This document shows, in pieces, positions 18,886 through 61,220 of a stretch of 64,000 nt of DNA (within the stretch, counting starts at the first letter, position 1; each line of letters starts with the position of its first letter). Under the pieces are notes generated by a model. The model was not told where the DNA came from. It saw nothing but the letters and a program-made list of their open reading frames with translations, and searched no databases. The position numbers and the translations under genes were made by a program. The DNA lies in contig NC_060253.1 of assembly GCF_921293095.1 (NCBI RefSeq), positions 84,419,992-84,483,991 on the forward strand, written 5' to 3'. This DNA is from Ischnura elegans (taxonomy: Eukaryota > Arthropoda > Insecta > Odonata > Coenagrionidae).

Positions 18886-21800
18886 ATGAATTCGTGTCCT
18901 CTCCTCTTCAGCGCCATTATGGTCACATTCCCTCTGCTGTTGACTTCGGTGGGTGCTCGCGATCAGTGCGCCAGTGCTTCGGAAAGCGGCCGCTACTTCA
19001 CACTCTCCGTTGACCGCAAACTAGACGTTGCCACCGGAGACTGGATCCGCAGTTTCACGGCGCAGAACACGGACTCTGAGAAGCCGAGCGACGACATCGT
19101 GTTGCACGCGACACACAGCAATGTGCAGTGCGGAGGAAGGAACGTCGTCCGTCTGGAAGTTGTGGTCAGAGGTAGGCCAATAACATCACTTACCATGGGC
19201 GTACCCGTACTACTACGGGCAAAACTAGCAGTGATCGTTCAAGTTGTAAATTTTTTGCGAAGAAAAGGTTAATGAAACCAAAATTTTAAGGAAATTATGC
19301 CAGCAATTTATTATTTTTTATAATAATTTGCTTGAAAAATAATGATTTTTGTTTAAGTACCATGTCTTAAACTTACTCCTTATTAATGTGATCACCTTAC
19401 CTACTTTATTTATGTCCAGTAGCAATGCACCAATCAATTGAAATGAACGGAAAATCTGCTCTTGTATCATTGCACTTAAAACTGTTTTGTAACGGGTTGT
19501 TGGCCTTTAATGTCCTTATTTGACACTCGTGAATTTAATTTTATATTTTTTCGAGTCATGATATTAGGGACTAAATTAAATAGCACAATATTTTAATGAC
19601 ATTTTCGTATTTATTTACCTACAGAATTGAAGACTAACATGTCCTCCATGGAAAAATGGACTAATTTGCTGAAATTTCACAGAAGGCATGGGAAAAACGT
19701 CATACTACTGGAGGAAGGACGTACGGCTCAAAAACTGGAGTATGTATCGTATGGTGATGAAAACCTAATGCATCTGGTTCACTTTATCTTTGTAGCTGAG
19801 AGGGCGTGGCTAAATTAAGTGGGGAAGAGTGCATTTCGTGAAACCCCGGACACTTTCGGATGCCTTCGCTGATGGATGAGGAGTAGTATCGAGAGAGAGA
19901 GAGAACCGGAACGAACTCAACGTTAAACTAAAGCCTGAATCACACGATCATTTTTTTTTTCTTTTCGAAAGTGTTCACTATCTCGATCACTTATCCCGTC
20001 GCGAAAAGCGATCGCTCTAGTGATCATTTTTCTGAATCACACGGTCACTCCCGCCGTTGCTTTTCGCATCAATTCCGATATCACAATTCGTTGCCATAGG
20101 ACCCGCATCACGAAAATATTAAGCGTGTTTGTTTATCTATGCCGTTCCCACGATTGCCAAGCGTTGCGCTGCAATCACTCCATACGGGAATGGGTTCCGA
20201 TTGGCTGATATGGGGTTTTAGTGACGGTTTTAGCAACGGAAAAAGCGACCGGACTAGTGATGAAAAATAGGAATCCTCATCGCGATCGCGAACGCGAAAA
20301 ACAATTGCCGGCGACGATCATTTCGCCTAGTGATCGCGATAGTGGTCACTTTCGCGATGAAAAAAAATGATCGTGTGATTCAGGCTTAAAAGGCCGGCCT
20401 TATTTAGCAAAGAAAACGTTAACACGTTGTCGATCGTTGCGTGCGTAATTCTCTTAATAGCCCGGTCAAAATAGATTTTGACCCTTACATAAATTCCCAA
20501 CAGACTAAAAATTTAAATGAACGCTAGGAATACCACTCTCATTAAATCCTGAAAAGTCCCCATCGATCCCGTGTGTGCAAACAGTTTTATTTCATGTCAA
20601 AGGCCACAAAAATAGGTTTTTTGCATTTTTTTTTTGGCCAAACGATTAGTTTTACGATAAAAAGTGTTGAGACCAAAATTTTAGATCAGGAAATTATCTA
20701 TAAAATGTTCATTGTACTTTTTTCTCCAAGATTCACAATTTCTGAGATAAAGACATTCGAAAGTTAGCTTGAGCCGTATTTTCCCTAATATGCATGACTA
20801 GTGCTGCGCTCTCCGAACATAATTGAACAGCTCCAGCTAACTCTCGAATGGCTTTTTCTCAGAATTGGTAAACTGCAGGGAAAAAAAAGACATAACAATT
20901 TTGTAGATAATTTCCTTATCTACAATTTTGGTCTGAGAAATTTTTATCGGAAAACTAACCGTTTGGAAAATAAATGCAAAAGAAAAAACATTTTTGTGAC
21001 CTTTGACCTTGAATAAAATTTTTTGCACGCAAGGGATCGATGGGGACTTTTCAGGATTTTATAAGAGTGGTATTACTAAGGTTCCTGTAAATTTTGAGCT
21101 TGTTGGGAATTTATGTAAGTGTACCCCTATGTTTTGGGCTAATTTGACCGGGCTATAAGGGCTTTTATAAGACAGATCGATACCTCCGCTGCACAAGCAC
21201 TCAACAATCACCTACCGAATCAAATCCGCTCATCAGCCCTAGTAGCACCAGATGAGCGGATTTGAATCGGCGGGCGATTATATAGCGTTTGTGCAGTGGA
21301 GATATCGAGATGTATAACCATGGTAGAACTGTGCTTACCTCAACTGACATTTAAATTAACAATTGACGACCAAATTCCGATGAACGAATTGCGGACGTCC
21401 ACGTGAACGCGGACTCACGTAACGTTCAATGTTTTATAAACGGGGTATAAGTCAAGGATGGCAGTCAACACGCATTTTTGGGCCGGCACTAAGACAATAG
21501 ACCGAGTCATTTGGGTGGGATTAAGGATAATCCCTTTACAGAGGCCCAGGAAAAAATTGGTAGCACTGGTAGCTGATTTACGATATAATAATATGACACA
21601 TAAATAATAGTAATATAAACTCTATGAATATGACGGAGGTAAGCGAGTGAATATCCGAGGCCATGCCTCCAGTTTTCTGATTGGCAAAGGTAAGGTCACG
21701 TGCCGAGAAAATTCATCTCTATTCATTCCCACTTACTTTAATAGCAACTGCTGAGCCGCAAAGATAAACTGAGCCTTTTATAGCTCCTGTAGGATTGAGT

Positions 21801-24800
21801 TGGATTTTTGAAAATGGAATTCTAATGATAATTCATTTATTTATTACCATGGATGAGAAATCCCTACTGGGGGATTTGGCAAGTAAATTTGATCAATTAT
21901 TTTCTCCCTTCTTAAATGCTATAATGACGGTTATTCATTCATCTCATGCAGCCCCGAAGACGTACACAATGCAGTCACTTTCACAAATAGACCTCTGAGA
22001 AATGATGAAATGTTTGAAGTAAGATTGGAAAAGAAAATTAAGAAGACCAACCACGTTTTGGGCATTGGGGTGGTGACGTATTCTCCTGAGGACGTCGAGA
22101 TACTACCACAGATGCACGTGAGGTAAGAAATGCCAGTTAAAAGAATTTGGCTTGCATAACATGTTTTTTTATTATGTAAGATTTTACACTTTCTCGGCGA
22201 GCAGAATATTTAAACTTTTCTCGGGATTATTTTTTTTTTTTTTATTGCTTACATACATTTGGAAAATGCTCACGAATGCTTGCGTAGATAAAAATAGAAA
22301 TAGATATATATTCTCTGAATTAAATTAGAAATTTTCATGCCTCAATCGTTGGCAAACCTTTAAAATGGCCATGAAATTTATAAACTTAAGTCTTATTAAC
22401 AATCATAAAAACTTATCGTTGGTCCATTCCTGGTTATTCTGGGATACCAATTAAGCCATAATGCTAATCAGCTGGTGATAGTGTTAAGTGAAATGAATTT
22501 TAAAATGAATTTTCAATTGTTTCAACTTACCAGCGAAGCACATATATTAACTCTGCAAAGATAATACAATTTTTTGCAGCTAATTAGCCTATTTTTGTTT
22601 GAATGTACAATTATTTTGTAAGTACTTTATGTAAATAGTGACTTCAACTCATTTTTTGGAAATTCGGCTATTTCCAAATTTCTAGTCCCATGGGTGTAAG
22701 AAATTTGGAAATAAAGGTATATTGACATTGAATTTTTTTATTTTTTCAAAGCGGTGATTCAAATTTAGGCGTATTATGAGTTTTGCACTATTCACTAAAG
22801 TAACTATTGGTTATGTTCACATATTTATGTAAGTAATCGGCTGGAAGAATACCAACCAATTTGAACAATTTATCTTCGTTCAGAATGCTCACATTTAAAT
22901 ACTATATATACTCCAATAAATTTCCTAAGTAGCTTCAATTGTTTTCTTCTTGATAAACTAATGTCCGTTTTGCCACTTGAATCCAGTACTGTAATTCCAT
23001 TTCTTACAATATTCTTTAATGAAGCAACACATATAATTAGCCTTGTACTCAGGTTCCGGGAAAGTAATTATACAGAGTATATGGTTCAACTTGTTACTAC
23101 GAGGGTCGATCAGTAAGTAATGCGCCATATTTTTTTCTCAGGACACATGTATTGCAAAGAGTCAGAATTTGGTAGCAATATGCATCAAAATGGTCTATTT
23201 TCGTATGTAGTTTCCATCGCGTTGTTTGGCCGTGCGCCAACATGTTGGGGGAGCATGTATTCCCGGGTGGTATAAGCTCTTGTCTTTTAGGCATAGAATT
23301 GCCGAGCGTGGCTGATCATGGAGCTCTGTTTCTGCATCTCCTGAGGCTGTAACATTTTTACCCATCGCCCAACTTCACTCCTACCAACTGAAGCATCGCC
23401 ATAAACTGTAAAAAAAGTTATAAACTTTCACCACTTTTTCTGCACAAAAGAATTCAATAACAGCACCCTGCTTATAAAGTGAGTATTATGTAGACGCCAT
23501 ATTGAGTCAATATGGCGTCTACATAAGGCTCACTAATATTACACAGACTAAATAATATTATTGACGCTGTGCTACGGTTATGCCATCTGCTGGAACGGTT
23601 ACAGACTTCACCAGCGCAGAGAACAAACAAAAAATGTTAAACTGAGACAAGGACATTTATCAATAGCTTAAAAAAATTGGGCATTACTTATTGAACGACC
23701 CTCGTTATTTTATTAATGAGGGTACTAAATACAAAATATTGGTCGAACCCTGCGAAAATTCATTTTTAACCTGTGGAACATTGTAATGAATTGGGATACA
23801 TACAAAAGTGTGGTGTGGATGCGAAAATACACCATGTTTGGGGTAATAATTGGCGGTGAATGTAATAAATTTCCTTTATCAAAGCCTACGAGCTCATGAC
23901 TTACATACCCCTATTTCCATATCATGACGTCCATTCTTTTATCCGGTTATTTCATTGGATTATTTAAACTTTGGTTGATTACCGCACTTAAATATAACTA
24001 AGCTTTAAGTTTTCTATACGTTATTGAAACAAGTGTACAGTAGATCGATAATCATTTCGATCGATATTATTAATCGATATTATCGACATTAGATTACGAT
24101 AAGTGATAAAAACGAATGTAACATTAGACCTTATAAATATTGAATGGTATACACCACAGGGTAGGATTACCGTCTACTGTGGATAACCTAACGAGAATAG
24201 GGGTTTTCTTGTTTTTTCGTGAAAAATTATATTTTTTAACGTTTTCGACTGATGTTTACGTTTAAAAATAGGTATTCGTCATTCTAGCGATAATTTATGG
24301 TTGGGAATAAGAGCGCCTCGGTAAAAGTAACAAAAATTTGATGAAACTTTGGTCACATTTTCTTTGAAAAACGTACCTACTTTCAATAATCCAGATAAAA
24401 AGGGATTCCCGTGTATTTTCGAACCGTCCCGTTTTTGACGTATTTGACGGTAAAATTAGTATAATACAACATCCCTTAGCGAAAAAACTGTTGAAATTTC
24501 AGCAGTTAATTGGGACCACTGTTGAATACAACAGTAACTGCTGAATCCAATAGTAACTGCTGATTTCATCAATAACTGTTGGATTTATTAGTTACTGTTA
24601 GAGTTAACAGTTATTGTTAGTTTTCACAGTTACTGACAGTTTTAACTGTTACTGTTAGTTTTAACAGTGGTCCCAATTAACTGTTGAAATTTCAACAGTT
24701 CTTTCGGTAAGGGATGGGCTCTTATGGATAAATACTTTTTTGCCATGGAAACTGTTTATAAAAGGACCTTGCTGAGATGGCGTTCATCATAAGCAACATT

Positions 24801-27800
24801 TTGTGACGAATTTAAATATGTAATGCGAAATCACAAGTTCATGATGGAAGGAGAAAGATATTTGCAAAAAAAACTGCCCGAAAGCATCTAGGCGGCTGGG
24901 AATCACTGGCACCAACATCGCAAAGCGAAAACCGTAACGCCGACTTCGCCTAAATTACGCTAATATGTTCAGTTTCCTGGCTTTTGCATACGCTTTACAT
25001 ATCTTTTGTCTATACATAAATACATTCATTTAGGATTTACCACTACATTTACATTGTGAATATTTAGTCAAGGTGTGTCGTCAACAGTTCAGCGTGTAAA
25101 AGTTCGAAGCAGTGCTGAAACTAGTTAAGTTGACCCCTCTAAATACCTTTTAAAAATCATTTTTGGCGTTTGCATTGTGCTGAGGTCCAAAATTGCATAT
25201 ATGTCATACCTAATGGTTTTCTTTTGTTTAATTTTTAGCGACTATTTTGCGTTAATAATAGGTTCCCCAAGTACATCACTTGAATTCAACCGATGCCGCT
25301 ATAAATACCTTATTACTAAATGCTCGATAAAATTAGCTTTCCCTCATGTCTGTAATTTTTTACAATAATCCGTGGTAAACGTAATGCGACAATGCGAAGC
25401 ATTTTCGCCATTTCAATGCTGAGATTAGTAGTGTAATTTTAATATATCAAATTTTATGCATGGAATAATTTAAAAGTAATAAATGCATAATCATAATACA
25501 ACCCTTGTATGAATATCAAAGGTTCTATGATGGCTTTAAGAACTAGAATGTAAGTTGTAGAATATCGATGTTACATCAATATTTCCTATCATTGTAACAT
25601 AAGCCATTGTCCGGAAGGACAGGCAAACTGACATGAAACTGACTTTATCAAAATTGATCAAAAATGAACGCAATCATAAATTAGCGCTAACTTAATCAAA
25701 AAAATTTTCTATTTTGCATAGGAATGAAACGTGGATGATGAAACATGCTAGCCTGTATGGAAATAATAAAGCAATCAAAGCTAACATTGGCAAAAATCTG
25801 GACTCCTTAGAGGTATGCACTTTTATTTATTATAAATATACGTAAGAAATATCAATGCCACTGTATTCAATATTTTTAGGTCAGAGTGCCGCGCAGTGGT
25901 GCATTACTCTGTAAATGAGGTCCCACGACTATAGGCTGGTGACAATAATCGATAGCCAATTGATCGTCGTAGATGTAATAATCCGGAAAGTAATAGTAAA
26001 CGGATTACCGAGAAAGTAAGTCGAAGTATTATGAAGAACATCCTTAAGGCGTGCCCGTCAATCGGCATAAGATCGATTATTTGTTGCCTAAGCACTATGC
26101 TATAATTTAATGCATGAAATAATGTTAAAGTAATAAATGCATAATCATAATACAACCTTTGTATGAATAGCATAGGTTCTATGATGACGTTGTAGAATAA
26201 ATATATAGAATTGGTTAAAACTTTCACGGTACATGGTATTAAGATCCTTATTTTTGGGTTTACCCGTGTCACAAATTAAAATTCCAACAGTTTCGTCACC
26301 GCTGCTGGAGACTTCATCAGGGCGTCTCTAGCAGCGGAGACGAAACTGTTGGAATTTTAATTTGTGACACGGGTAAACCCAAAAATAAGGATCTTAAAAC
26401 TATGTAGAATGTGCCGTAGTGCACGCAATATGTAGCTTAGTGCATTTTGAGTGAAAATATTCACACCCTGCCAAATACCCTACATGTTTCGCCGACAGCC
26501 TGCTACTATTACTACTTAGTGCTATCGACTGTTTTACGTGACGACCTATTTGTGCCATGTATCATTTACCATCAGTCTTTATTCACGGCAAGCCAGTAGT
26601 ATATCAGAGGAGATTTGGCACGGCAGCATGAATTGCGTAGACCTGTTGGCGTCGGCTTAGTTGTCGCCGACCTTTATTCATGATACCAAAAATGAGGAGG
26701 AAGCTTAATACGAATTTGATACTGAAAATATACAGGGTGGAGAAAAAATGTGTCACAAAATTTTAACCTTGGATAGCTGATATCAGCAGGAACCAAAATT
26801 ACAAATGATATTCGGCTGAAAACGTACCAAATTCAAACTACAGAAATTATGAGCCAAGTGCTCCGATTGGCCGCGAGTTTGCACTGTTGCCGGATGCCTT
26901 GGATACCTCGCGTTCACCGGCAAAGCATTCGAAGTCATGAATTGTCCAGAACATCCGGCAACACGACAAACTCGCGGCCAATCGGAACTTGGCTTGGATA
27001 AAAGTTTCTGTAATTTGAAAATTGTGCGTTTTGGACTAAAATATCCGTAATTTTGATTCCTATAATCATCAACTATCCGTGATTAAAATATTATGATATA
27101 ATTTTTCTCCACCCACTCTATCACACCTTTTATGTTAATCTTTAAATGAAGTTATTGTGCCAAATCACCTCACTTCATAAATATACGCTAATTTTGTCTC
27201 TTCCCCGTCCAGTTTCATGGGATACCCTGAAAACCAATAGTCATGGAAACTTTGATCTGTGAATCAGGTTCTTTCGTTTGCTCTAATGGATCGCTCAGCA
27301 ATCATAGTCGTAATGCGGACTTTTTTGGAAATCAATTTAAATGCGTCCTAACAGGAAACAAACATCAAGCTCCAACGGGATTGACTGAGGTCCCCTCTAT
27401 GTATTCGACATGTACAAGACCATCTCCCCCAATTTTCAGCTTCTCAAACTGTTTCAAATGTTAAGCGAATTTGGGGCTAATGATTACACTAGTAGTGATT
27501 CTATTTTTTCTCGAAGTGTTATTTTCACGAATATTACATTTGAGAATTCTTAAGTCCGCCGCTAGAATTATTGTCGCTCTGCGTACATCAAAATCAGGTT
27601 TCAAAATCACCATTCCCGGTGTTAACAATCATGAATATTCACGGCGAATATTCGTAAATTAGCCAATAAATCATTGTCAGCGAAAAAGACCAGTTATATT
27701 CTACATATTATGCATAGGTGGATTTAGAGTTTGGGGGCACCCCCAGACGCTTTAAAAAAAATATTTTTAATACAGTTATCATTACGTTCGTTTTATTTTG

Positions 27801-28362
27801 TTTATTACGGAGCCTGGATCATTCAGTTTAATTTTAATAACTTTCATATCTAAATAAAGAGAATAGTTGATACATTAATTGATGTATTTTCTTTTTAATC
27901 TCAAATATGAGAAGACCTGTCACATCCTTGCGCCTCCCCCAGGAAAAAATCCCGTATCCACCCCTGCTACTATGATCAATGGTGATAATCACTCTGAACG
28001 AGATACCAAAGCCCTTTACGGTCCATGCGAGATACAGCTGCCTAGTGGCGCCGCCGAATAAAATACGCGCGAAACGGCAACAGAAGAACATGGTGGCTAA
28101 GGCAGGCAGGCGGAGTCCCAAGAACATGGCGGTCAAGCGTTATAACGTTTCACCGCGATGCTCTTGGGTCTTCCTTTAATGGAGTCCCTTTGGTTTTGAT
28201 CCTCAGGTGAACGACAGGGTCGGAGTGATGCGGCGTGCGAACGGCGAACTTCACTTTTTCATCAATGGCGTCGACCAAGGTTCGGCCGCAGCCGTCCCTG
28301 AGGGCGTTTATGGAGTGATGGAGCTTTGGCACGACGCCAACAGGGCGCGCATTGTATACTGA
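18886..28362 (+). CDS. Gene A: secreted single-NHR (Neuralized-homology-repeat) protein
   Basis: Five exons: 18886-19171, 19625-19739, 21952-22122, 25722-25812, 28207-28362. All introns are GT-AG, in phases 1, 2, 2 and 0, giving an unbroken 272-residue protein. Residues 1-24 form a signal peptide ending LLLTSVGA. Residues 25-95 are an unrecognised region with cysteines in DQC and VQCGG and a GDWIRSF motif. The rest is one NHR domain: FHRRHGKNVILLEEGRTAQK, VTFTNRPLRNDEMFEVRLEK, IGVVTYSPEDVEILP, TWMMK, then DRVGVMRRANGELHFFINGV and DQG, ending EGVYGVMELW. This order matches NEURL4-type NHR repeats, whose family members act inside cells. There is no RING or second NHR. NMSS and NETW are glycosylation sequons. 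Function is unknown; the exon model is well supported by the B and C paralogues. Introns 2-4 are full of foldback elements. Confidence 0.88.
19931..20387. mobile_element. MITE with AAGCCTGAATCACACGATCA termini (gene A intron 2)
   Basis: The left end AAGCCTGAATCACACGATCA is the reverse complement of the right end TGATCGTGTGATTCAGGCTT, and the subterminal CACTTTCG and GATCGCGA words also pair. Length is 457 bp. There is no coding capacity. The family was not assigned. Confidence 0.8.
20458..21155. mobile_element. Long-inverted-repeat foldback element (gene A intron 2)
   Basis: Ends TAGCCCGGTCAAA and TTTGACCGGGCTA are inverted. Inward, pairs such as AAATTCCCAACA/TGTTGGGAATTT, AAAAGTCCCCATCGAT/ATCGATGGGGACTTTT and GGAAATTATCTA/TAGATAATTTCC keep register to about 20775 and 20830. 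Each arm is about 320 bp, moderately diverged, with a loop of about 55 bp. The open frames inside are the same arm read on both strands. Confidence 0.85.
23100..23704. mobile_element. mariner deletion derivative (gene A intron 3)
   Basis: Termini CGAGGGTCGATCAGTAAGTA and TTACTTATTGAACGACCCTCG are inverted, with TA at the left flank. On the minus strand ASVGRSEVGRWVKMLQPQEM corresponds to the helix-turn-helix part of mariner transposase (usual ASVSRSTVGRWVKR). The catalytic region is absent, so the element cannot encode an active transposase. A perfect 18-bp palindrome sits inside at 23487-23525. Confidence 0.8.
24473..24713. mobile_element. Foldback MITE built of AACTGTTA words (gene A intron 3)
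   Basis: Terminal inverted repeats of about 50 bp begin CCCTTA(G/C)CGAAA and include ACTGTTGAAATTTCA and TTAATTGGGACCACTGTT on both sides. The core is a run of AGTAACTGCTGA, AACTGTTGG and CAGTTACTG words, so almost the whole 241 bp can fold. AT flanks both ends. Confidence 0.8.
25450..25562 (+). repeat. Direct repeat, copy 1 (copy 2 at 26098-26200)
   Basis: AAAGTAATAAATGCATAATC, ATAATACAACC and GGTTCTATGATG are shared with 26098-26200 at high identity. The two copies flank gene A exon 4, suggesting a local duplication or two insertions of one small repeat. Confidence 0.7.
26098..26200 (+). repeat. Direct repeat, copy 2
   Basis: Matches 25450-25562; it lies in gene A intron 4 and ends where the inverted repeat at 26239 begins. 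Confidence 0.7.
26239..26397 (-). repeat. Hairpin with hammerhead-like motif, Penelope-type terminal piece (gene A intron 4)
   Basis: Two nearly identical arms of about 74 bp (outer ends TTAAGATCC and GGATCTTAA) surround a short loop. The minus strand carries CTGATGA (26314-26320), a GTCTCC...GGTGAC stem, then GAAACTGTT, the order of a hammerhead ribozyme core. Such motifs are known at the ends of Penelope-like elements. No coding part is present. Confidence is high for the repeat and moderate for the ribozyme reading. Confidence 0.7.
26733..27118. mobile_element. Tc1/mariner-like MITE with long inverted ends (gene A intron 4)
   Basis: TA-flanked left end CAGGGTGGAGAAAAA pairs with the right end TTTTTCTCCACCCA, and the inner words GGATAGCTGAT/ATCAACTATCC, CAAAATTAC/GTAATTTTG and GATTGGCCGCGAGTTTG/CAAACTCGCGGCCAATC also pair. 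About 386 bp, with no transposase. Confidence 0.75.
27709..27968 (-). mobile_element. Decayed hAT-like repeat (gene A intron 4)
   Basis: The left end GCATAGGTGGATTTAG and the reverse of the right end, GCAGGGGTGGATACGGG, form imperfect inverted termini, with a GGGGGCACCCCC block just inside. The segment at 56935-57245 in gene C has the same end words in the other orientation. No coding sequence. Confidence 0.5.
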
Positions 28363-44600: not shown

Positions 44601-47600
44601 AAAGCGTCTGTCATGCCGTAAATGGTCCGTTAATGCTGCACCTACATTGATAGTTGACGTATCTCCTTAAGTTGAATCACCGGCTTCTGACGAAAAATAC
44701 AATCTAAAATTTCACTATCTACCCATTAATTTGACATAAAAATTTTCCAAGTCGATTACTCGACCAAGGTATATCGAATCCACATTTTATTTTATTCTAA
44801 ATTATTTAAAAAAAGTTTAAAAACTCATGATGACAAAGCTCGTAACCAAAAAGTTACATACGAAAGCATTTTTTCTTATAATATTGTCTTTAAAGTAGTT
44901 TTGTAAATTTCTTTAAAGAAAAAAAAAGTTTTTAAAAAAACTCCCAAATATTTTGTCCCATTATTCAGAAAGAGACGTCATGATTATTCCCACTGACTCC
45001 AAACTGTCTTGCCTGTACTGTATTAACATGTTTTGTATATTTTCGCAAGAAAACGATGATATAGAATGTGTTTAATGAAACACCTTCTTATCTATTTGAA
45101 ACCCATTTACACCGTTTCCTAAACATACTCATTCCATAATAGTGTGAAATTGCGAAATTTTTTCATGGGTTATCAAATACTCACTTGATTCTGTCGATAT
45201 GCTGTGGAATTTGTGGAAAATCGTTTGGTGAAGTGGTTGTGACTCCAATGCCCAAGCAATGAGGAAATTTAGTTAGTTTTTTCTCCAATTTTATTTCCAA
45301 TGTCTCGTTAATCTCGAGGGGACGATGAGTGAAGACGACTGCGTGACTGCTTTCCTCAACACTGCGTTAAAATGAGAAAAAAAACGGTAAAATTATGGAA
45401 TTTCACGTCAAATATTTTCAGCATTATGGGTATATAGTTGACATAAGGTAAACGAAGATCTCTCGAGGTGAGTTCAACAAGTAATGTGACTGTACTTTTT
45501 TTCACGGCCAATATTGGTTGAAAGATCTTCTTGTAGAACATTTTTTGGTATGATACGCGCTATACGGAGAGGTTAAATTGGGTTCTATAACCGAGGTGGG
45601 TTCCAATATGGTAGTTTCCTTCATCAAAGAAAACGAAAGGTATGGATTGCGATTCATTACCCACCATTAGTGTATTTATGATATACAAATTATTTGGTTT
45701 TAGAAATTCCAGTTTAGACGAAAGTTAATGGTCAATTTTCAACTCATTTGAAAAAGGCCAGATTGGCGACCATGCGATGCCACTCCACCAGGGACCTAGA
45801 TTCTATACGAGTGGCCATGAGTTTAATATCGTCTGAGATTACCAATGCATGCATGTGGCACAGAGCTCAAGGAAACATTTCTTAATAATCACCTATTAAA
45901 ATTGCCTTTGGTCGGAAAGTTTCCATCGTATGATAGGGTATTAATTATTTTTCTTTTTTAAGCCAAGCGCCTCCTGCTAGCAGAGTACTCTGCTACCTGC
46001 TAACAGCCTGCATCGTGGCGGCGCTCATAGCCTCGCACCAAGGTGGCCTCAAACGGCGGCAGCCGGAACCAGAATTACGTCACACGGGCTTTTCCCAGCA
46101 TTCATACTTAGTTTCATAATCTGCTGCTGGGGTATGGAGGCTTTAGATATTACTTTTTTCAACGTGTATTTAACGAATAATATTTCCTCCGCCCATATTC
46201 TTCCTTGCTTGGAAAAATCCGTGAAAAATAACAGAACGATGTGAGCTTGACAAACTTGTCGTCCTTATGTTGTAGCTCCTTCTTCCGCTTTCGCAGCGCC
46301 TAACCATCGTAAAGTTACAAAGTTAGGAACTACGTGAACTAATGTCCGGACATGCATTCACAGAACCAGTTCTGGTAACTATCGTTAAGACGATCGTAGG
46401 GACATTCGTAATCTGAACGAGGCAAAACATGATGAAAGTTATCGATGGAGTGCGACCTTGGCTCCAACGTCGACTAGTAGAAAAGGTACTATTGAGGCAT
46501 ACAGACAAGGAGGTTGTAAATACACTGGAGCCGTTGTACTGGAGTATTAAGCGTGGTCTGATTGCCGCCATCTTGTTTTGACAATTGTCGGACTTTAGTC
46601 TCCAATAGTGTACGTATATAATCAAGTATTCTATTCCTTATATCGCCTCTGATTTATAAAATGAAAATGCAACAATTTCTTCTTGATTGTCGTCGGAGTT
46701 TTCAGATTGTTTGTTATACTACTGTGTATATTAAGCTGTCCATATAGTTATGTCGTGGTGATAATATATCGTCGTGAACATGCTTTAGTACTATTATTGC
46801 GACCGGTCCGCTATCGTAAGATTTCCATTAGCTGTAATCTTATTAATTACCAGTAGAAGTGCAGGGGAATGTATGTTATACACTTTAAAATGTTATTTTT
46901 CGCTAAATTATTTGCACAGCGGAACCGTGGTGATTGACAATAATTTTTCCTTGGGAAAAGATATTCGAGACATATTTTCACGAAGCCTTCCCGTAATGAT
47001 ATAGAAAAAAGGTTTACTGTGTTCGTTTGCGATAGTTTATTTTAACGTAACAATGATCATGACCGAATGTTTCACCAAATAGTTAACATTTACTCTATTT
47101 CGTCAATTTCTCGGTCAAAGTAGGCGTGGCTATCCTACCCAAGCACCCCCATTCCTGTCACTCTGCGGTCAACACTCGGAACCAGTGGTGCCCCCTCCAG
47201 TATATTTAGTACCTCCTTGCATACAGGCCCTTCCTTCATGATGGCGTCAAGCCGCAACACTCAGTGGAGATTACTTTGAGAAATAGTGTTTTGCAGCTGA
47301 AAGATTGAAAAATAACATGGTGTACTTGAATGCTGAACAAATCAACTCCTGTTTCAGAAAAAAATCTGTTGCATTAATTATTAAACTTCCCTCGTACACT
47401 CTAATATAAGGATTGGTTGAGGCATCCAGTTTTAATTGAATAAGTGATAGTTGGATACAATATCAACTGCAACAGACGCGGCAGCCTAAGAGTTTGGGTA
47501 TACTATCCAATTAAATTTTAGGCTCGCAACTTGGCTGTAGTGCTAAAGTGTTTTCATATTTCGTTGGGATCGATGGGGGGGGGGGGGGGGGGTCCAGACC

Positions 47601-50541
47601 CTCCGGATTGGACCGCTACGCCACTGGTAATTAATTATAATTGGAAATAACTGGCTGTTTATAATAATATCCGCTGAAATATTACCCTTTCATTTAACGC
47701 TACGGCAACAATTCGCAAACCTGCGGCATCCAATATAATGGGCCTAAGACCCAACAACGCTGGTAGTGGGTTCTGGAGATTTCTTTGCCACAGCCGTCAC
47801 AGCCATCTCTTACGCAACTATTTAAAATGGCTCCCTCGCCTACTTAATGGACGGCTCCGCGGCAACCATAAAAAATTATTGTGGGAGCAAACTCTTGGTA
47901 ACGACATCCAATCTTTTCTCTCAGTGTATATTCATTTCAATCGAAAATGAAAAGGAGACTTCGTTGATTTCCACTGATTTATTTCGTCTGTACGACATGT
48001 TTCGAACCATAGTGGTCATTATCAAATACCTACCTCAATGGTTCGAAACATGTAGTACAGACGAAATAAATCAGTGGAAATCAACGAAGTCTCCTTTTCA
48101 TTTTCGAGTACAGTGGAGCCCCGCTAATCCGAAATAATTGGCACCGGACCCATTTCGGATTAGCGAATATTTCGGATTAAGCGGACTGTTATTAATTTAA
48201 CGATAAATTATTAAATACAACGTGCAACTACATAAATTAATCGCCGAAACGCCGTTTCACGTCCATACGGTATGAAAAACAACCAACTTCATTATGTACG
48301 CCGTACGGCAACGCTCTGCACGGCTACCGCTTGAGTTCGTAGTTGCAAAGAAATCCGATAGGTAGCAGCACAATCTACGTTGTAGAAGTTTTGTTTTTTC
48401 CTGATTTTGATTTCGGATTAAGCGGATTTTCGGATTACCGGATTTCGGATTAGCGGGGCTCCACTGTATTAACTTCCACATTGTTGACCCTAATACAATT
48501 GAACGAATTCATTTCAATCATTATTTTCACAATAGTTTTTCAATTTTAATTCTCCACTAAGATATGAATTTTTACTTCCAATGATTTGATATAAAAGTAT
48601 CAGTCGTATTCCAGAACCTAAATCGATGGTATCTCGTGATGGCATTCACATGTTACTACTGAATTCCCTCTCACTCACAAGAATTTGGAAAAATCATCTT
48701 ACTTGATCTTGCGTGCCTGAAGACCATTGTTCAAGATGGCAACGTTACTGCCGCACTTGTCGTGGAAAAATAAATCCCTCTTCTTAATACTGCGATACCC
48801 CTGGGAAACAGACGATGAAAGACCTTGAGGAAAAGAAATGTTATTAGCGTATGCAAAGCAATGAAAAAAGCAGAAAGTAAAAATTTGCGCTCTGTTAATA
48901 GTAATATATAAACGGGTTTATTGGTGCGACATTGAGACTGAGATCTTTTTTCTTCTATTTAACTCATTTTCATTGAAATGATACTAAATTCATACAGCTA
49001 TTATCATATTCTATTGAAATGATAAAGGAAAAGTTTTCAATGCAGTCACAATTGGAAAAGGTAAACAGCATCATAGAGCTTGGTGGTACAGAAAATTATT
49101 AACATGCAGAATACGTCAATACGCTTATATAGCACGGAACAATAATATAATGTGTCAAAACCTTTATTGGAAAAACCTTTGGATTTTGTAGAGCGCGTTT
49201 GTGGTACTCTCTGCAAGAAAAACGCGAACCCAAGATAGGGGGCGCGAAAAACTTGAAAAACCCACCAAGAAAGAGCTAGTGTGTTTCTGGCTGTATACAA
49301 AATTGAATGGATGAACCCAGTGCGTGGAAACAGAGACAAAAAAATAAAGTTGGTACTTGGGGAATCCGACATTGCTATTGTAGTATTTTGATTATCCCGC
49401 TGTTAAGGTAAGAGAAGTGTTCTATGACATACGCTTTTGAAGGAATTCAGTGAGGGGGGGAATCTACTCAGCGGTCTTTTCATATTATTTCAAATCAATA
49501 TTCATAACAAGATTATGGCAAACGCGGGATGCGGTAACTATCAGTGATTTGTTGAATCTGGCTTCTCGGTGTTGAGGTATTACTACTTCATTGTCTTTCT
49601 TCCCTGTACCCAGCTAGGTACTAACCCATTATAACCTAGTGTTGCTTCCAAGCAACATCAAAAATTTATTAATTTCCAGCTCTATTTAGGAAATATCTAA
49701 ACCAAGGATTACTTTTTGGTGTAATTTGTAATGACGAAATACTTAGCTGCCACAAAAATTATGGTTGAGTGCAAAATTTTGAATTTTTCAAAATGAAAAA
49801 TCTTGAAATTCGATTTCTCCCAGGAGCAGCTCTGGGTTAGAAAGGGTTAAAATGTCCCGTTTAGATGCGCTGGCGTATCAGTATGTAGATTTTGATAGAA
49901 AATAGAGTATATGAAACAGATGTCTCGAAAAAAGTTCTTTCTAGTTGAGAAAGGCTATGGAAACAGAACTTAAAGAGAGAACAATAACGAGTTATTAATT
50001 AAACTCGTTTTTTTAATCTTTCTTTTACGTTAAACTCATGAAAGTCATTTACTTCAAATAAGATTATGGATTTAATTATCTGATGATAGAGCTTCTGATG
50101 TATCATTGTCATAGTATCATATATATTGCGACATTATAATTAAATAGTTAAAAAAAACTAAAGATATTTTTTACATATTTAAAAAGGATACTTACTAAAT
50201 AAAATCGTTCTTTTAATATATTTCCTTAAAATTTTTGTTACTTTACCTGATAACACTCCACGAATCTGAAGAATCTTCTTGCCCCTGCATTCAGTCACGT
50301 CCTGCGATAGTTTCAGTGTCAAATTATGGTTTCCATCCGAATCGGAGTCTCCTTTGTTGACGGAGAAGCTGGTCACCCAGTCTCCTGTGCTGTTCCTATG
50401 GCTACCTATAAACAAGCTGACTGCACTCGGTGACTCCTTGTCAACCTCGCATTCATCATCTGCACCGTGAATGAACAAAAGCAAATAAGACAGGCACGTG
50501 ACCGAGATAGCGAGTTTATTGGTTGTCATGACGAATATCAT
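35643..50541 (-). CDS. Gene B: secreted single-NHR (Neuralized-homology-repeat) protein
   Basis: Exons in transcript order: 50541-50247, 48823-48703, 45361-45185, 43822-43732, 35804-35643. Donors are GTAAAG, GTAAGA, GTGAGT and GTAAGA; phases 1, 2, 2 and 0. The product has 281 residues. I start at the first ATG after the predicted cap site (MIFVMTTNKLAISV). The signal peptide ends LLLFIHGA. Next come about 72 unrecognised residues with cysteines in DDEC and TECRG and a GDWVTSF motif. The NHR domain follows: LFFHDKCGSNVAILNNGLQA, VVFTHRPLEINETLEIKLEK, IGVTTTSPNDFPQIP, SWAWYI, then VGDRAAVKRTNTGALHFYYN and GVDQGP, ending VYGVVELYG. Cysteines in DKCG and FPHCLG are shared with C but absent from A. 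Sequons are NST, NLT, NET and NKS. Intron 4 is 7.9 kb and filled with insertions. No break is seen. Ligand and tissue are unknown. Confidence 0.88.
35925..36575 (+). mobile_element. CR1/L2-like LINE 3' fragment (gene B intron 4)
   Basis: VKYLGVAITSNLMWGTLISN, LKKLGFVKRIVGRF, FVRPHHEYAASVWDPVPKDL, VRFAKNATGSVTQMLSELGW and EPLKTRKLCARLRLLEQLR follow the reverse transcriptase C-terminus. Only a few stops interrupt it. The 3' end CACCCCCTGCCACACGCC...AGGTGGCTTGCTGAG matches the family at 17550-18410. Confidence 0.8.
36585..36780 (+). mobile_element. mariner 5'-end remnant (gene B intron 4)
   Basis: GAGTAATGTAACAATTTTTT, CAGCCAATTTTGGTTGAA and CTATACGGAGCTGTTTGCTG match the left end at 45456-45590. 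Copies of the matching right end lie at 39745-39905 and 47225-47399. The transposase body was not found here. Confidence 0.5.
38277..38720. mobile_element. piggyBac-type MITE (gene B intron 4)
   Basis: TTAA lies at both edges (38273-38276 and 38721-38724). Inside it, CCCCTCAACGCCG is inverted as CGCCGCGCTTGAGGGG. TTAA target sites with C-run/G-run ends are characteristic of piggyBac. The element is 444 bp with no transposase. Confidence 0.8.
39573..39626 (-). pseudogene. Duplicated start of gene B exon 5 (decoy terminal exon)
   Basis: TTTAG followed by GTTGGCGATCGAGCTG repeats the gene B intron 4 acceptor and first five codons. In phase it reads VGDRAANFLPVECCRPV and stops. The preceding duplicated intron sequence (39626-39740) matches 35804-35920 closely. 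In the transcript this acceptor comes before the true exon 5, so it could act as an alternative terminal exon that would remove the last third of the NHR domain. Confidence 0.65.
39626..39740 (-). repeat. Duplicated end of gene B intron 4
   Basis: ATATCTGAATGCAAGG, TCTTTGATGTACGACG and TTCAATGAGTTCGTCCAA are shared with 35804-35920 with only a few differences, so the copy is recent. Confidence 0.85.
39745..39905 (+). mobile_element. mariner 3'-end remnant (gene B intron 4)
   Basis: GGCGTCAAGCC, AAAAATAGT(A/G)TT, TTTCAGAAAAAAATGTGTTG and TTATTGAACTCCCCTCG form the end of a mariner family and match 47225-47399. Confidence 0.65.
40225..40366. repeat. Inverted repeat inside the left end
   Basis: TTTCCTCTGCATTCATACAT...ATGTAAAAGTGGTA is mirrored by TACCATTTTTACAT...ATGTATGAATACAGAGGAAA, with about 60 bp between. 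Confidence 0.75.
41415..41474. repeat. Near-perfect 60-bp palindrome (gene B intron 4)
   Basis: Arms of 29 bases (outer TTGGATACAAC, inner GGCTCAATGTGGTC) are complementary with one mismatch around an AA loop. Confidence 0.9.
43191..43452 (+). repeat. 132-bp tandem duplication
   Basis: GGGTATTCAGATTT(T/C)CAATTTGTAATACGC begins at 43191 and again at 43323, and the following 130 bases match with very few changes. It sits at the right end of the candidate transposon at 40141-43513. Confidence 0.9.
44030..44520 (+). mobile_element. LINE 3' fragment with GATGATGAT tail (gene B intron 3)
   Basis: ALELKLRKRVVKCYVWSVLG, FEMWVWRKMEVIGWTDRVRN, INQRKGNWLGHLMRGNGIL and RRRGRRGLKFIDNIKIG correspond to the C-terminus of RTE-like reverse transcriptases (EMWC.R...I.W.DRV.N...GHI.R...GRP). 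It ends in a short GATGAT run. One stop and a length change interrupt it. Confidence 0.7.
45456..47399 (+). mobile_element. mariner remnant split by another repeat (gene B intron 2)
   Basis: CGAGGTGAGTTCAACAAGTA at the left and AATTATTAAACTTCCCTCG at the right are inverted termini of the family seen at 36585 and 39745. The repeat at 45602-46110 sits inside. Without it the element would be about 1.4 kb, a normal mariner length, but I did not recognise transposase in the interior, so the pairing of the two ends is inferred. Confidence 0.45.
45602..46110 (-). repeat. Interspersed repeat, copy 2
   Basis: Reverse-orientation match to 4474-4970. An extra direct repeat around AGCAGAGTACTCTGCTA distinguishes it. 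The family is unknown. Confidence 0.7.
47941..48107 (-). repeat. Penelope-type terminal hairpin (gene B intron 2)
   Basis: Arms of about 70 bp (outer TCGAAAATGAAAAGGAGACT, inner CATGTTTCGAACCAT) are nearly identical in inverted orientation. On the minus strand GATAATGACC...GGTTCGAAACATGTCGTAC parallels the 3' end of the Penelope-like fossil at 12664-12703. Only terminal sequence remains. Confidence 0.7.
48111..48466. mobile_element. pogo/Tigger-like MITE (gene B intron 2)
   Basis: TA-flanked ends CAGTGGAGCCCCGCTAATCC and GGATTAGCGGGGCTCCACTG are exact inverted repeats, and TTTCGGATTA words repeat inside both. It is 356 bp, non-coding, and abuts the Penelope-type hairpin. Confidence 0.88.
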
Positions 50542-50595
50542 TATGATAGACGCAAGCACTCTTGTAGTGGCTTCAAGACCTAAAATGATTGCTAG

Positions 50596-50632
50596 AACTG
50601 TGGGTCACCAACGAACGAGTATCGCTTATATA
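50596..50632 (-). promoter_or_regulatory. Core promoter of gene B
   Basis: TATATAAG (50632-50625) lies 33 bases before the A of a CACAGTT initiator (A at 50599), an arthropod TATA-Inr spacing. The leader to the ATG is about 58 bases. Gene C has the same arrangement, and about 200 bp upstream is also conserved between the two. Confidence 0.7.
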
Positions 50633-50924
50633 CACTTAAAGGTCATGGATTTATCAAAATAGCGATAGGAGACGTACTGCTCAGTGTCACTCTCTATTGA
50701 CCCTAGAGAATTATTGTGACAGACCTTTACTTCGAGAAGAGATATATTAAATACGGAGGAAATAAATATTTTAAAAAGTGACCTTACTGGTAATTCCTCT
50801 ATCAACATTCTCTTATCACGTTGTAAGGACTAAATATGGCCGTGGCACTACGATCTTGGAAAGTAATTCTCCTCAAGTTTTGTCTCTTGGCTATCATCTT
50901 TCTTCTTCTTCTTCTTCCTTGGCG

Positions 50925-52064: not shown

Positions 52065-52109
52065 AGTAAATATTTGGTCTGTTGTGCCCCTATCTCGTCG
52101 AAATCCACC

Positions 52110-53351: not shown

Positions 53352-53385
53352 CTTTAGTTGTACATTATATACTTCCCTAGTGTCT

Positions 53386-53840
53386 AGGCTTTGGACAGAA
53401 TCATCAAAACCCTCTTTCGGATTCTTTCTAACAATGTCACTACTGGAAAAATCTTCTCTAGCTGTCCATTCTCATTCTTCCGTCGGCCACCAAGTCTGTC
53501 TTCCATTTTCAAAACAACTGAACCACTCTCATGGTTCACTACCGGAACTTACACTTTACCTATCCCTTGCCAAAGATCCTGTTGCGGAACCTGTGCGATC
53601 CTCATCACCCAGTCACTTCCGAACAAGTATCTCAATCTTCCACTTCCTTCCACTACATCTCCCACCTGTACAACTAGTAATGTAATTTATATCCTTTTCT
53701 GCAATTCTTGCCCCGCCTTTCACATTAGTGTAACCACCACTTCACTCAACCTCCGGGTTAATGACTATCGAGCTTCTTGCAATCCAAATATAAACATGTC
53801 TATCGTGGGAAGTGAAATATTTTTATTTTTTTAAAGTTTG
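53386..53840 (+). mobile_element. Penelope-like element, GIY-YIG endonuclease fragment
   Basis: SCCGTCAILITQ-like and NVIYILFCNSCPAFHI followed by LNLRVNDYRASCNPN match the N-terminus of the GIY-YIG endonuclease of Penelope-like elements (usual NVIYLI.C..C...YIGET...L..R...HR). It directly abuts the 5' end of the RTE-like LINE. Short, broken fossil. Confidence 0.65.
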
Positions 53841-54600: not shown

Positions 54601-54634
54601 CGTAGACTCAGGCCAGAAAGGAAAGGCTGAGGAG

Positions 54635-55918: not shown

Positions 55919-56119
55919 AATTACCGCCAAAGAAGTATCTTGTTTTAGGTGAGGCAATCAATCAGAGTGCATTTACTTACTCTGTGGAAATTATGATTAA
56001 TTATTTCAAACTGGGCGAAAATTTAACTTCATTAATTCAAGATGTCCGTCATGAGAAGGAAAATCACAGTGGTGTATCTTCATAGTTTCATGTCCGTAAA
56101 TCCTTACTTGCTTTTTTAC

Positions 56120-59100
56120 TCAGTGTTCGACAATTGATGCCATTGCTGCGTTTCCATAGAGTTCAACAATACCGTAGACGGGATGTGGAATGTTGGAGAA
56201 GGCTGGTCCTTGATCGACGCCGTTATAATAAAAATGGAGGGCCCCGGTGTTAGTCCTCTTTACAGCAGCTCGATCGCCAACCTGAATGGAAATTATTTGT
56301 GTAAATTTGTTTCCGAATGCTAGGTTTGTCTTTGAAGAAAGCACTAATTACAGATTTACGAAAACAAGATGATCACTTGAAATGACAGGGTATTAAATAA
56401 ATAAAGAAATTTTAATGCTATGGTACATTACACTATGGTACAATAAATAAAGAAATTTTAATGCTATGGTACATTACACTATGGTACATAAATTACAATG
56501 CTATGGTATGCCCTAACAAGAAATGCTTACGTGGAGATTTATCAATAATTTAATAGTAGATAAGTCAAGTTCTAAAATACGGCAATCAATAAAGCATATG
56601 AGTGTATGATTTAAAGAAGATAAATCAAGATCTTACTTCCATTGCGTCCAAATTTTTCCCATAATTTGTCAGATTTCTTTCTCCATTAAGATAGGAGTGG
56701 GACATATACCACGCCCAAGACATGTTTCTAGAAAAAAAAAACATTATAGAAGGATTAAAAAATGAATAAGAAAATAAAAGGCATGAAAAGGTTTCATAAA
56801 CAAAAGAAAAATAAATCGGAGATATCTGCAATTTTAAATATATTATCAATCATAAACCGCTTTCACCTGCATCTTATATTTACATTGGTATGTTAACGTG
56901 ATGCAGCTTGAGCATCTGCACTCAATAATGCGTAGAAGGATTCAAGGTCGCACCATAATTTTTTAAGGGGGCACTAGGGCCTGAGAGGCGAGCGATCTTT
57001 TTATATTTGGGATAAAATATTAAATACTTGAATTGATTAAATTAGTCAATAAAACATAAATTAAAAATTATTTATTAAAACATTATTTTTTACTAATAAA
57101 GTTATTAATATTACATTAAATGATTCAACATAAGTATTACAAAGAAACAAAACGAATGTTATGATACCCGCATTAAAAGTCTTGTGTTTTTTTAATTCTC
57201 TGAGGGGAGAGGAACCACCGTGCTACCCTAAATCTGCCTATGCAAGGAAGTATATATGGTGTTTATAAACGAATATCGGGGTTTTAACGCTCTACAATAT
57301 TTATAACATTATACTTACAGTTATAAATTATATATCAAATGAAAGAGCAACTCAAAAAGTTTTGCTATTTAGAAGCAATGCACATGTGCGTGAAATGTTT
57401 CCGCATAAACAAATAACACATGTAAAACTCATAACACTTTCTGTTCACTAGCCGCCATCAAGGACCGTCTTTTACCGACCTTGGCCGCCATCTTTGCTAC
57501 TACCGCTTTCTAGCGGATCGCGTTGGAAACATTTCACGCACATTTGTATTGTTACTAAAAAACAAAACTGTTTCAGTTGCTTTTTCATTTTACATATTAT
57601 TTATAACAGCAAGTATAATGTAATAAATATTATAAAGCGCTATAACCCCGATATTCATTTATAAACACCCGGTATATCGAGGAATCGCATTGGCGCGTAA
57701 GAAAAGCGTGTAATACTCACTTAATTCTGGTGATATGCGCAAGAATATTTGGAAAATCGTCTGGAGAAGTAGTAGTGACTCCAATGGCAAAGCAATGAGG
57801 AAATTTAGTTCCTTTTTTCTCCAATTTTACTTCCAATGTCTCGTTAATTTGGAGGGGACGATGAGTGAAGAGGACGGCGTCACCGCTTTCCTCAATACTG
57901 CATTAAAATGGGAAACATACGGTGAAATTATTGAATCAAACGTAAAATATTTTCAGCGTTAGTAATTATCAACAATCAAGATTTCTCACCATAAATCATC
58001 AATAACACAGGCCAACGATGAAAAAACGTTTTTACTGAAAATACCTTATTATTATGTTTTTTAGGTTGCTGAATCCGCATATGATGCTTAAAAAGTTGTA
58101 TCACCCACCATTTATTCATATTTAATAGTTCAATTTATGAAATCAAGCAATATTTTTAGAATTTAACAGCTTTTTTATAGTTGAAATAACATTGAGAAAG
58201 TAGGTCCAATGGACGAAGATGGTGTAATAATGTGATGAGTAATTTAATCGTAAATACAAACCATTTTATGACGTATTACAGTATTTCATTGATTTCCCCA
58301 TATACCGTATAGGGGTATTAGACTATAATAAAATACATAAGGCTTGGAAATTATAGGTGATACACAAATAACTAAGGCCTGGTTTGGATTCAGCACACAA
58401 AAATCTATAAAGATCGGCTATTAAAATAAAATAAAAATTTCAAAAAAATTTTTTTGTTGGCCTGTGTAATCAATAAAATAACACTACATGATCTTGTAAA
58501 ATCAAAGTGTAGCCAATAGCCATAATTTTGATTTTAATGGTGCTGAGATTTTAGATTATTAAAAATATTATTAAAAAAGGATTGAGTAAAGAAAATATTC
58601 ATAGTTCTAAAAATGAAAATTACTGCAATAAAACATCAGACACTAGCAACCTCAGTCAAATTTATTTTTATTGAAATAATCCCAATTGATTGTAACCTTG
58701 ATGTTTTAATTGAACTTTAATTAATTTTAAATCGATGATCAAACTGAAAATAAGCTATGTAAATATACTTGTGTTTCATTTTTTTGAAATAGGATTTTTT
58801 ATATTTTTTTTATTTTACTATTGGAAAAGATATCACAGTGATTATTATTCACATCTTAATGTATTGATTTAATGTACTCATTATTCACAGCACTAATAAT
58901 CTCATCTTACTTGATCTTGAGTGCCTGAAGACCATTGTTCAAGACAGCAACGTTGCTACCGCACTTATGGTGAAAAAATAAACCTTTCTTCTTAATGCTG
59001 CGATTTTCCTTGGATGAAAGACCTTGAGGAAATGAAAAATTATTAGCGTATGTAAAGTAATGAGGAAAGCAGAAAGTAAATTTTTGATGACTACTAGTTG

Positions 59101-61220
59101 TAAAATAATTAACGGAATTTGTGGTGCGGTATAAACACTATGAAGTCCTATACTCCATAGTTATTGAAGTATTACTAAATTCATACAACGATTTCCATAT
59201 TCAACTAGCTGACCCGGCGAACTTCGTACCGCCTAACAATCAATGAACTTACAGTTTAGTTACACCATTTATAAATCAAGAGCGGCTGTATCGTTTTTAA
59301 TCATGTTTCATTTATTATAATAAAATAAGGGTACAAATTCAATAAAACTACGTAAATGAGTATCGCAATTGCTTTTCAGAAAGACATTTTCTTTATTGAA
59401 TCTACATAGGGTGGATCGGAGCACTTTTACGCGGATTTTTTTCAATTAATTCTCTTACGTTTTAGCTTAAGAAATTTCGGGCATTGTGGTTTTACAAAGC
59501 AGTTAATGAAATGAAAATGATACGGATTCAGTTGTTGGCTATTAGTGTTATTAACGGTAAAAAAATGTTTTTAGGTCCAAGTCTGTTGCGTAAATTTGGC
59601 CCGTTCACGGGGCAGGTTAACACAACGCCTGACCGACGCTTGACTGGTGCTCAAAATCGTGTAAGAAAAGTCCCTATGAAGCAGCATTCGTATCAAATGA
59701 CTTTAGGCGCGCCAGTTATAATATATCTGTTTGGATAAAATGTACTGCGTAAATGTGCTGCATGCCTAAACACACCACGGTGTGCCCTACACATTCGGAT
59801 TTAATGTCTTGCGTCAAGTGTTCTGATAAACAACAGTTTTTGTTTTGTTATCCGGCGCAAGATAAAGCGGATGAAGCTAAATAAATATGGCGAATCGAAG
59901 CAGTGACGCAGCGAGGGGTTTTTTTTGGGAGTTAAAATCCCCCCAAGAACTCAGAGAACTTTTTTGTAAAAACTTTTGTTACTAATATCAGGGGGACGGA
60001 TGAGTAACAAGCGAAACATATTTAACTATTCACACAGCCCCAAACCCACTATTTTGAACCATTTATCTTAAAAAATGTCTAGGGGAGGGCCCCCACACCT
60101 CTCGCTTACCTTAGCGAGTTTTCTATACCCTACAGACCCGTAGTATTAGCTGCGCCTAAAACCCCCCATCCTTAACTCCAATCTGCGCTCTTGAAGCGAA
60201 GGAAGAAATACATACATGAAAACCTATTAAGAAAAAGCCTATGCGATTATGGTTGCACATAAAATTGAACTAATACATCCAGTTTTTGGAAACGGAAAAA
60301 AGCAATTGGTATTTAAAGAGGCCGCTCTAGCCATTGTAATATTTTGCACTTCACGCTCTTATACTCAGAGAAGTGTTCCATGGCGTATTCCTTCATATGA
60401 AGTGACGGAGCTCTACGTAGCATTACGTCAACATTATGGCAAACATGGAAAGTGATTTGTTGAATCTGGCTGGTCGGTGGTGAAGTATTAAAAGTTCTAC
60501 TATATATCTCGCCTTTGTGCCTTTTACCAAGTTAAGTATTAAAAAGTCTCCTTTACACTGGTGTATGAAGATTTTATTAGAATAACGATTGCATGAAGCA
60601 GATTTCGCGAAAAAAGTTCATTCTAGTTTCGAATGGTTATGAAAATATTATTTAAAGTTTATAAACACTAATGAGTTATTAATTAAAATCGTTTTTTATC
60701 TTTCTTATTCGTTAAACTCATTAGTGTCATTTCATTTCAAAAAAGAACATGAGTTTTTTTATCTTATGATAGAGCTCATGATGTATCATAGTGATAGTAT
60801 AATGAATTGCGACAGTATAATTAAGTTGTTTAAAAAAACTAACGATATTTTTTATATTTTAAAACGATAGTTACTAAAAAAAACCGTTATTTAAATATAT
60901 TTCCTTAAAGTTTTTATCACATTACCTGATAGCACTCCACGAATCTGAAGAATCTTCTTACCCCTGCATTCAGCCACATCCTGGAACAGTTTCAGTGACA
61001 AATTGTGGTTTCCATCCGAATCGGAGTCTCCTTTGTTGACGGAGAAGCTGGTCACCCAGTCCCCTGTGCTGTTCCTATGGCTATCTATAAACAAGCTGAC
61101 TGCACTCGGTGACTCCTTGCCAATCTCGCATTCATCATCTGCACCGTGAATGAACAAAAGCAAGTAAGACAGGCACGTGACCGAGATAGCGAGTTTATTT
61201 GTTTTCATGACGAATATCAT
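56120..61220 (-). CDS. Gene C: secreted single-NHR (Neuralized-homology-repeat) protein
   Basis: Exons in transcript order: 61220-60926, 59022-58911, 57897-57721, 56727-56637, 56281-56120. Donors are GTAATG, GTAAGA, GTGAGT and GTAAGA; phases 1, 2, 2 and 0. The product has 278 residues and no break. It begins MIFVMKTNKLAISV and has the same signal peptide as B. By eye, exon 1 differs from B at 7 of 98 residues and exon 5 at 3 of 53; exon 2 is three codons shorter. The NHR domain reads LFFHHKCGSNVAVLNNGLQA, VLFTHRPLQINETLEVKLEK, IGVTTTSPDDFPNIL, SWAWYM, VGDRAAVKRTNTGALHFYYN, ending VYGIVELYG. It keeps the cysteine pairs DDEC/AECRG and HKCG/FPHCFA. Sequons are NST, NLS, NET and NMS. It is a sister of gene B and probably has related expression; ligand unknown. 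Confidence 0.88.
56396..56486 (+). repeat. 46-bp tandem duplication (gene C intron 4)
   Basis: AATAAATAAAGAAATTTTAA and the following CTATGGTAC...ACTATGGTAC occur twice without a difference, so the event is recent. Confidence 0.9.
56935..57245 (+). mobile_element. Decayed hAT-like repeat (gene C intron 3)
   Basis: The right end CTAAATCTGCCTATGC is the reverse of the left end GCATAGGTGGATTTAG at 27709, and the left has a GGGGGCACT word. Same family in opposite orientation, AT-rich core. Confidence 0.45.
57257..57670. mobile_element. Foldback element with about 150-bp arms (gene C intron 3)
   Basis: GGTGTTTATAAACGAATATC, GGGGTT and ACATTATACTT are mirrored by AAGTATAATGT, AACCCC and GATATTCATTTATAAACACC. 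Inner pairs include GCACATGTGCGTGAAATGTT. GTATAT words flank both ends. Non-coding. Confidence 0.8.
59200..60360. mobile_element. Unclassified insertion in gene C intron 1
   Basis: Sequence here has no counterpart in gene B intron 1, while both sides match B. It starts near AACTAGCTGACCCGGCGAAC, a word I associate with interspersed repeats of insects. It holds open frames at 59484-59738 and 60249-60455 (+) with no recognised motif. Family not assigned. Confidence 0.4.

Follow-up and report, generated by a model that had tools for sequence, protein, structure and literature searches.

Work on NHR domains has dealt with them as components of ubiquitin ligases and adaptors inside the cell, with Neuralized (Neur), NEURL1 and NEURL4 acting on the cytoplasmic side; their fold is similar to that of SPRY domains, and we know of no catalytic role for them. 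In excerpts of PMC4565672, Neuralized is described as a ubiquitin ligase for Delta, with recognition through its NHR1 domain, and NEURL4 as an adaptor-like protein, for which one passage gives four NHR domains. Among secreted proteins, the SPRYSEC family of cyst nematodes was described, in a part of PMC5071358, as having an N-terminal extension of 60–120 residues and one SPRY domain and as a non-catalytic binding platform. These systems are compared here with a locus of Ischnura elegans (Odonata, Coenagrionidae) lying in a stretch of 64,000 nucleotides (NCBI RefSeq assembly GCF_921293095.1, contig NC_060253.1, positions 84,419,992 to 84,483,991), referred to below as the window. Three genes, A, B and C, were found in it that are predicted, with moderate confidence, to form a small tandem family of secreted, non-catalytic NHR binding proteins. 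The gene family is real, and it is likely, as a prediction, that its products are secreted.

Each gene has five exons, with A on the plus strand and B and C on the minus strand, and the models rebuilt from the sequence gave spliced products of 272, 281 and 278 residues, respectively. Splice sites were picked by eye for in-frame joining, and the models are thus to be read as possible structures with predicted usage. All 12 introns are of the GT-AG type. The exon phases (1, 2, 2, 0) are alike in A, B and C, as had been stated in the initial annotation, whose outer coordinates were also exact (18886 is the ATG of A and 61220 that of C). Between any two of the three genes, exon lengths differ by multiples of three, which follows from the shared phases and adds no separate evidence. 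The exons are as follows:

18886..19171, plus strand: gene A exon 1, signal-like segment followed by the two-cysteine N-terminal segment (model; the exon-1 profile contains this sequence)
19625..19739, plus strand: gene A exon 2, linker and first part of the NHR (model, Pfam, six-frame scan)
21952..22122, plus strand: gene A exon 3, NHR (model, Pfam, six-frame scan)
25722..25812, plus strand: gene A exon 4, NHR, opening with a sequon common to the three copies (model, Pfam, six-frame scan)
28207..28362, plus strand: gene A exon 5, end of the NHR and stop (model, Pfam, six-frame scan)
50247..50541, minus strand: gene B exon 1 (model, six-frame scan)
48703..48823, minus strand: gene B exon 2 (model, six-frame scan)
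45185..45361, minus strand: gene B exon 3 (model, six-frame scan)
43732..43822, minus strand: gene B exon 4 (model, six-frame scan)
35643..35804, minus strand: gene B exon 5 and stop (model, six-frame scan)
60926..61220, minus strand: gene C exon 1 (model, six-frame scan)
58911..59022, minus strand: gene C exon 2 (model, six-frame scan)
57721..57897, minus strand: gene C exon 3 (model, six-frame scan)
56637..56727, minus strand: gene C exon 4 (model, six-frame scan)
56120..56281, minus strand: gene C exon 5 and stop (model, six-frame scan)

The presence of an NHR domain was borne out by the Pfam profile PF07177 in all three products, with E-values of 5.9e-30, 5.8e-35 and 2.3e-29 for A, B and C, respectively, and scores of 104.6, 120.8 and 102.6 bits, far above the cut-off of 23.3. 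The matches start at residues 113, 118 and 115 and cover positions 1–147, 1–148 and 1–148 of the 149 in the profile. Only a single NHR stretch per product was found by Pfam, and in a six-frame scan the four NHR exons of each gene added up to one domain. Pfam matched no RING in A, B or C at E-values up to 10, and the earlier description of one NHR per protein, with neither a RING nor a second NHR, was supported. The scan, a profile search of 2906 open reading frames, recovered the 12 NHR exons and the three first exons, together with one additional weak match to the exon-1 profile (E = 0.047); both profiles were made from A, B and C themselves, and the scan probes for further copies and not for family status. 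By profile, the nearest solved structure was 2e63, the NHR of KIAA1787 (which we take to be NEURL4), with an E-value of 4.9e-24 and an alignment over nearly the whole domain, followed by Drosophila Neuralized (4kg0 and 2yue, E = 4.3e-05 and 6e-05), with about the first half covered.

Among solved structures, the NHR of NEURL4 is the closest by sequence; NEURL4 has several NHR repeats where the A, B and C products have one, placed behind a signal-like segment. Drosophila Neur shares the NHR at a weaker match and has a ligase RING that the three products lack. The layout of SPRYSEC proteins (signal, extension and a single beta-sandwich binding domain) resembles that of A, B and C, but the domain family differs: SPRY matches remained below the Pfam cut-off of 26.3 bits in B (14.9 bits, E = 0.029) and C (16.1 bits, E = 0.013), and none was obtained for A. 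By this comparison, the three products are similar in layout to SPRYSEC but stand outside that family; the window gives no pointer to parasitism. In the mostly open-access literature, as far as its indexed text and excerpts go, no secreted NHR family was found among reports linking Neuralized or NHR with the terms signal peptide, secreted, extracellular or salivary. Two consecutively numbered gene models named “neuralized-like protein 4” were reported with higher expression in females of Bicyclus anynana, in the part of PMC8327453 that lists them, and one female-biased gene of that name is given for Eurema hecabe in an excerpt of PMC10521528. The likeness of these butterfly genes is by name, their domain make-up not being stated in those parts of the articles, and they serve as a lead only. 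It is quite possible that a secreted NHR family, unnamed yet widespread, exists in eukaryotes.

Constraint on the coding sequence was evaluated mainly between B and C, in which 234 of 278 aligned residues are identical. A is more distant, with 102 of 269 residues identical to B (38%) and 99 of 269 to C; its silent sites are saturated, and the ratios of nonsynonymous to synonymous rates (omega) for A-B and A-C were set aside as not meaningful, the claim of selection resting on B and C. Nevertheless, the reading frame has been kept between A and B despite the 38% identity and the saturation. For B and C, the nonsynonymous rate (dN) was 0.09 and the synonymous rate (dS) 0.25, giving an omega of 0.36, with a value of 0.23 for exon 1. 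In a neutral simulation of 5000 runs, in which the same number and kind of B-C substitutions were placed at random, 65.5 amino-acid changes were produced on average and 51 at the lowest, against 44 observed; 3.1 stops were expected between the two copies and only 4.3% of the runs were stop-free. B and C are under purifying selection. The Pfam scores and this bias against amino-acid change support the view that the genes form a real family, as originally proposed. At the DNA level, B-C identity in exons 1, 2, 3 and 5 (94.6, 85.7, 85.9 and 93.2%) exceeded that of the respective 120-base flanks (90.8/86.4, 74.8/69.5, 76.6/61.3 and 68.5/71.7%).

The signal peptide proposed for the three products was retained in part: a hydrophobic stretch is present at each N-terminus, and its assignment as a signal rests on hydropathy. 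The most hydrophobic 17-residue stretch spans residues 6–22 in A and 10–26 in B and C (mean hydropathy of 2.15 and 1.89, respectively), and the best values for stretches starting beyond residue 45 were 1.04 to 1.39. A cleavage-like motif follows, VGA in A and HGA in B and C; histidine at position −3 is unfavourable for signal cleavage. The products end in SIVEN, SIVEH and RIVY, with no endoplasmic reticulum (ER) retention tail. Sequons number two in A, four in B and six in C, with P values of 0.59, 0.27 and 0.026, respectively, against shuffled sequences. The argument for secretion that had been built on them finds no support in two of the three copies, and sequon enrichment was dropped as proof of secretion since only C passes. 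One sequon (NET, NKS or NMS) lines up across A, B and C, at the start of exon 4 before a conserved tryptophan, where the NHR of 2e63 has G-G-S-W. Two N-terminal cysteines are common to A, B and C, and two further cysteines in the NHR occur as a pair in B and C, whereas A has neither, as a disulphide would behave. Each of these features is weak on its own; together, the signal-like segment, the sequons and the cysteines favour routing into the secretory pathway.

The statement that the proteins consist of a signal peptide and an NHR and nothing else was supported as to the signal-like part and the single NHR, but about 90 residues lie between the two and are conserved across the copies. This N-terminal segment carries an invariant T-G-D-W besides the two cysteines, and identity over the first exon is 28% between A and C. 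No Pfam family was matched in this segment, either with the full products (E-values up to 10) or with the isolated first exons of C and A (E-values up to 0.1), and a profile of the three sequences had no match in the PDB at E-values up to 10. A decayed second NHR was considered for the segment and showed no sign, exon 1 reaching a probability of 0.1% against the NHR profile. Among viral contigs, 14 and 67 stretches matched patterns drawn for relatives, and among bacterial and archaeal genome contigs 65 and 101, none of which stood up in tblastn; since both sets of contigs are viral, bacterial or archaeal, the negatives are not informative on animals. A match to an AsnC regulator (NCBIfam, E = 0.005, 16.7 bits where the cut-off is 227, in two of the three members) was taken as chance, as were another NCBIfam match (E = 0.091) and one PHROGs match (E = 0.3). 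AlphaFold models of the first exons gave a helix at residues 9–25 and four strands, with a mean predicted local distance difference test (pLDDT) score of 55.4 and a predicted template modelling (pTM) score of 0.30; the pLDDT is too low for any conclusion to be drawn from them.

The initial annotation had allowed that exon 1 might be part of a different gene. A TATA motif precedes each start codon at a near-equal distance:

18797..18804, plus strand: TATA box of gene A, TATAAAAG, 89 bases 5' of the ATG
50625..50632, minus strand: TATA box of gene B, TATATAAG, 91 bases 5' of the ATG
61304..61311, minus strand: TATA box of gene C, TATAAAAG, 91 bases 5' of the ATG

On both strands of the window, TATAWAW occurs 131 times, or about once per kb per strand. 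The test was conceived after inspection of the sequence and, because B and C are close relatives, the spacing counts as two independent observations and not three. Intron 1 of gene A is 453 bases long and contains no long additional exon, the longest frame-compatible open piece being 69 bases. Exon 1 with its signal-like segment is therefore likely the true 5' exon, judging from TATA motifs at −89, −91 and −91 and the short first intron of A. An origin of exon 1 from another gene was judged unlikely in view of the TATA position, the phase and the conservation across the three copies. A duplicated block joins B and C (49881–50896 and 60563–61578, minus strand, 85% identity over 1026 columns); it includes about 355 bases 5' of the start codons, so that the promoter was copied along with the gene.

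Several other elements were observed in the window. One of them, in intron 4 of gene B, is a copy of part of that gene:

39609..39740, minus strand: copy, at 94% identity, of the end of gene B intron 4 including its acceptor, plus 18 bases from the start of exon 5; within intron 4 of gene B

The frame of this copy meets a stop after 17 codons, and its splicing-in would shorten the NHR. The same intron holds, downstream of exon 4, two tandem copies of a 132-base unit with a 95% match (43184–43443). At 50925–53471, on the minus strand, a LINE-like (long interspersed nuclear element) frame with one in-frame stop, the downstream part of which matches RVT_1 (E = 2.4e-22), terminates some 380 bases before the start codon of B. 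A remnant of another reverse transcriptase element lies at 10898–12246 on the plus strand (RVT_1, E = 2.5e-4, below the cut-off); its second open reading frame, with no Pfam match, presumably resembles the end of a Penelope-type element. A long degenerate array with a unit of about 67 bases extends over 8280–15320, its left and right parts being oppositely oriented. Inverted-repeat stretches were found, among others, at 20481–21122, 26230–26406, 26735–27114, 47941–48107 and 62565–63350, and we take them to resemble short DNA transposons. No tRNA gene or Rfam family was detected when the window was searched for them.

The proposed course of events begins with transcription of each gene from its own TATA-type promoter, the motif being observed and its use probable. 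The first exon would provide a signal peptide that directs the chain into the secretory pathway, where the N-terminal segment may be closed by a disulphide between its two cysteines, and exons 2–5 would form one NHR beta-sandwich, the domain being identified by profile and the fold taken from the family. A mature protein of about 250 residues, possibly glycosylated, would then leave the cell, as expected of a chain that lacks a RING, a second NHR, any other strongly hydrophobic segment and an ER-retention tail. Outside, the NHR would act as a non-catalytic protein-binding surface, as it does inside cells, and its partner would be extracellular. Specificity may be set by the middle of the domain (exons 3 and 4), where B and C diverge most. 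As to the origin of the family, there is about an even chance that an NHR, known from roles in trafficking and ubiquitin pathways within cells, was shifted to the extracellular side by fusion to a signal peptide and a novel N-terminal segment with a disulphide and was then duplicated, giving an extracellular recognition family whose layout parallels that of the secreted SPRY proteins.

A number of results weigh against this proposal. The N-terminal segment is without detected relatives and poorly modelled (mean pLDDT of 55.4), the sequons of A and B do not exceed those of shuffled sequences, and B and C have histidine at −3 of their likeliest cleavage site, which makes an uncleaved anchor possible. 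Exon 4, with 76.9% B-C identity, is not above its flanks (77.5 and 75.0%), which speaks against uniform constraint, and part of the likeness of exon 1 and its flanks may be due to gene conversion and not to constraint. The role in specificity suggested for exons 3 and 4 is favoured by their share of nonsynonymous B-C changes, 34 of 46 compared with 10–11 of 27 in exons 1 and 5 (Fisher P = 0.003–0.007), but this grouping was made after the data had been seen. Taken alone, exons 3 and 4 did not differ from neutrality (P = 0.36), so that relaxed constraint would explain the pattern no worse than diversification at a binding surface. Positive selection on these exons was considered and rejected, the changes being not above neutral.

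The same observations bear on the alternatives. With an uncleaved signal anchor, the products would be membrane proteins of type II whose N-terminal segment and NHR face the lumen or the outside of the cell. The hydrophobic stretch of all three products and the lack of an ideal cleavage site in B and C are in agreement with this; against it stand a short core of about 15–17 residues, beginning no more than 10 residues from the N-terminus, and the near-ideal V-G-A motif of A. An anchor is considered unlikely. Retention of the NHR within the secretory pathway, as a lumenal chaperone or adaptor of the ER or Golgi, would account for the signal-like segment, some sequons and a protein-binding fold, but none of the three C-terminal ends is KDEL-like and the idea is regarded as improbable.

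That the products are small cytosolic adaptors, exon 1 being mis-assigned or an internal start being used, appears decidedly improbable. It would place them with the known NHR proteins Neur, NEURL1 and NEURL4, described in published work as ubiquitin ligases or adaptors, but it is at odds with the near-equal distance of the TATA motifs from exon 1 in the three copies and with exon 1 itself, which keeps the frame in every copy and shows constraint in the B-C comparison (omega of 0.23). Finally, one or more copies could be recent pseudogenes, as hinted at by the truncated duplicate of the exon-5 acceptor in intron 4 of gene B and by the LINE frame ending about 380 bases 5' of its start. With three frames open over 272–281 codons and stop-free neutral runs as rare as those reported above, this is very improbable.

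If the tandem family does consist of secreted NHR proteins, the NHR fold would also be an extracellular binding module, and a small soluble NHR would be at hand for ligand searches. It would also be a caution that the label “neuralized-like protein 4” on a short animal gene need not imply any link to Notch or to the centrosome.

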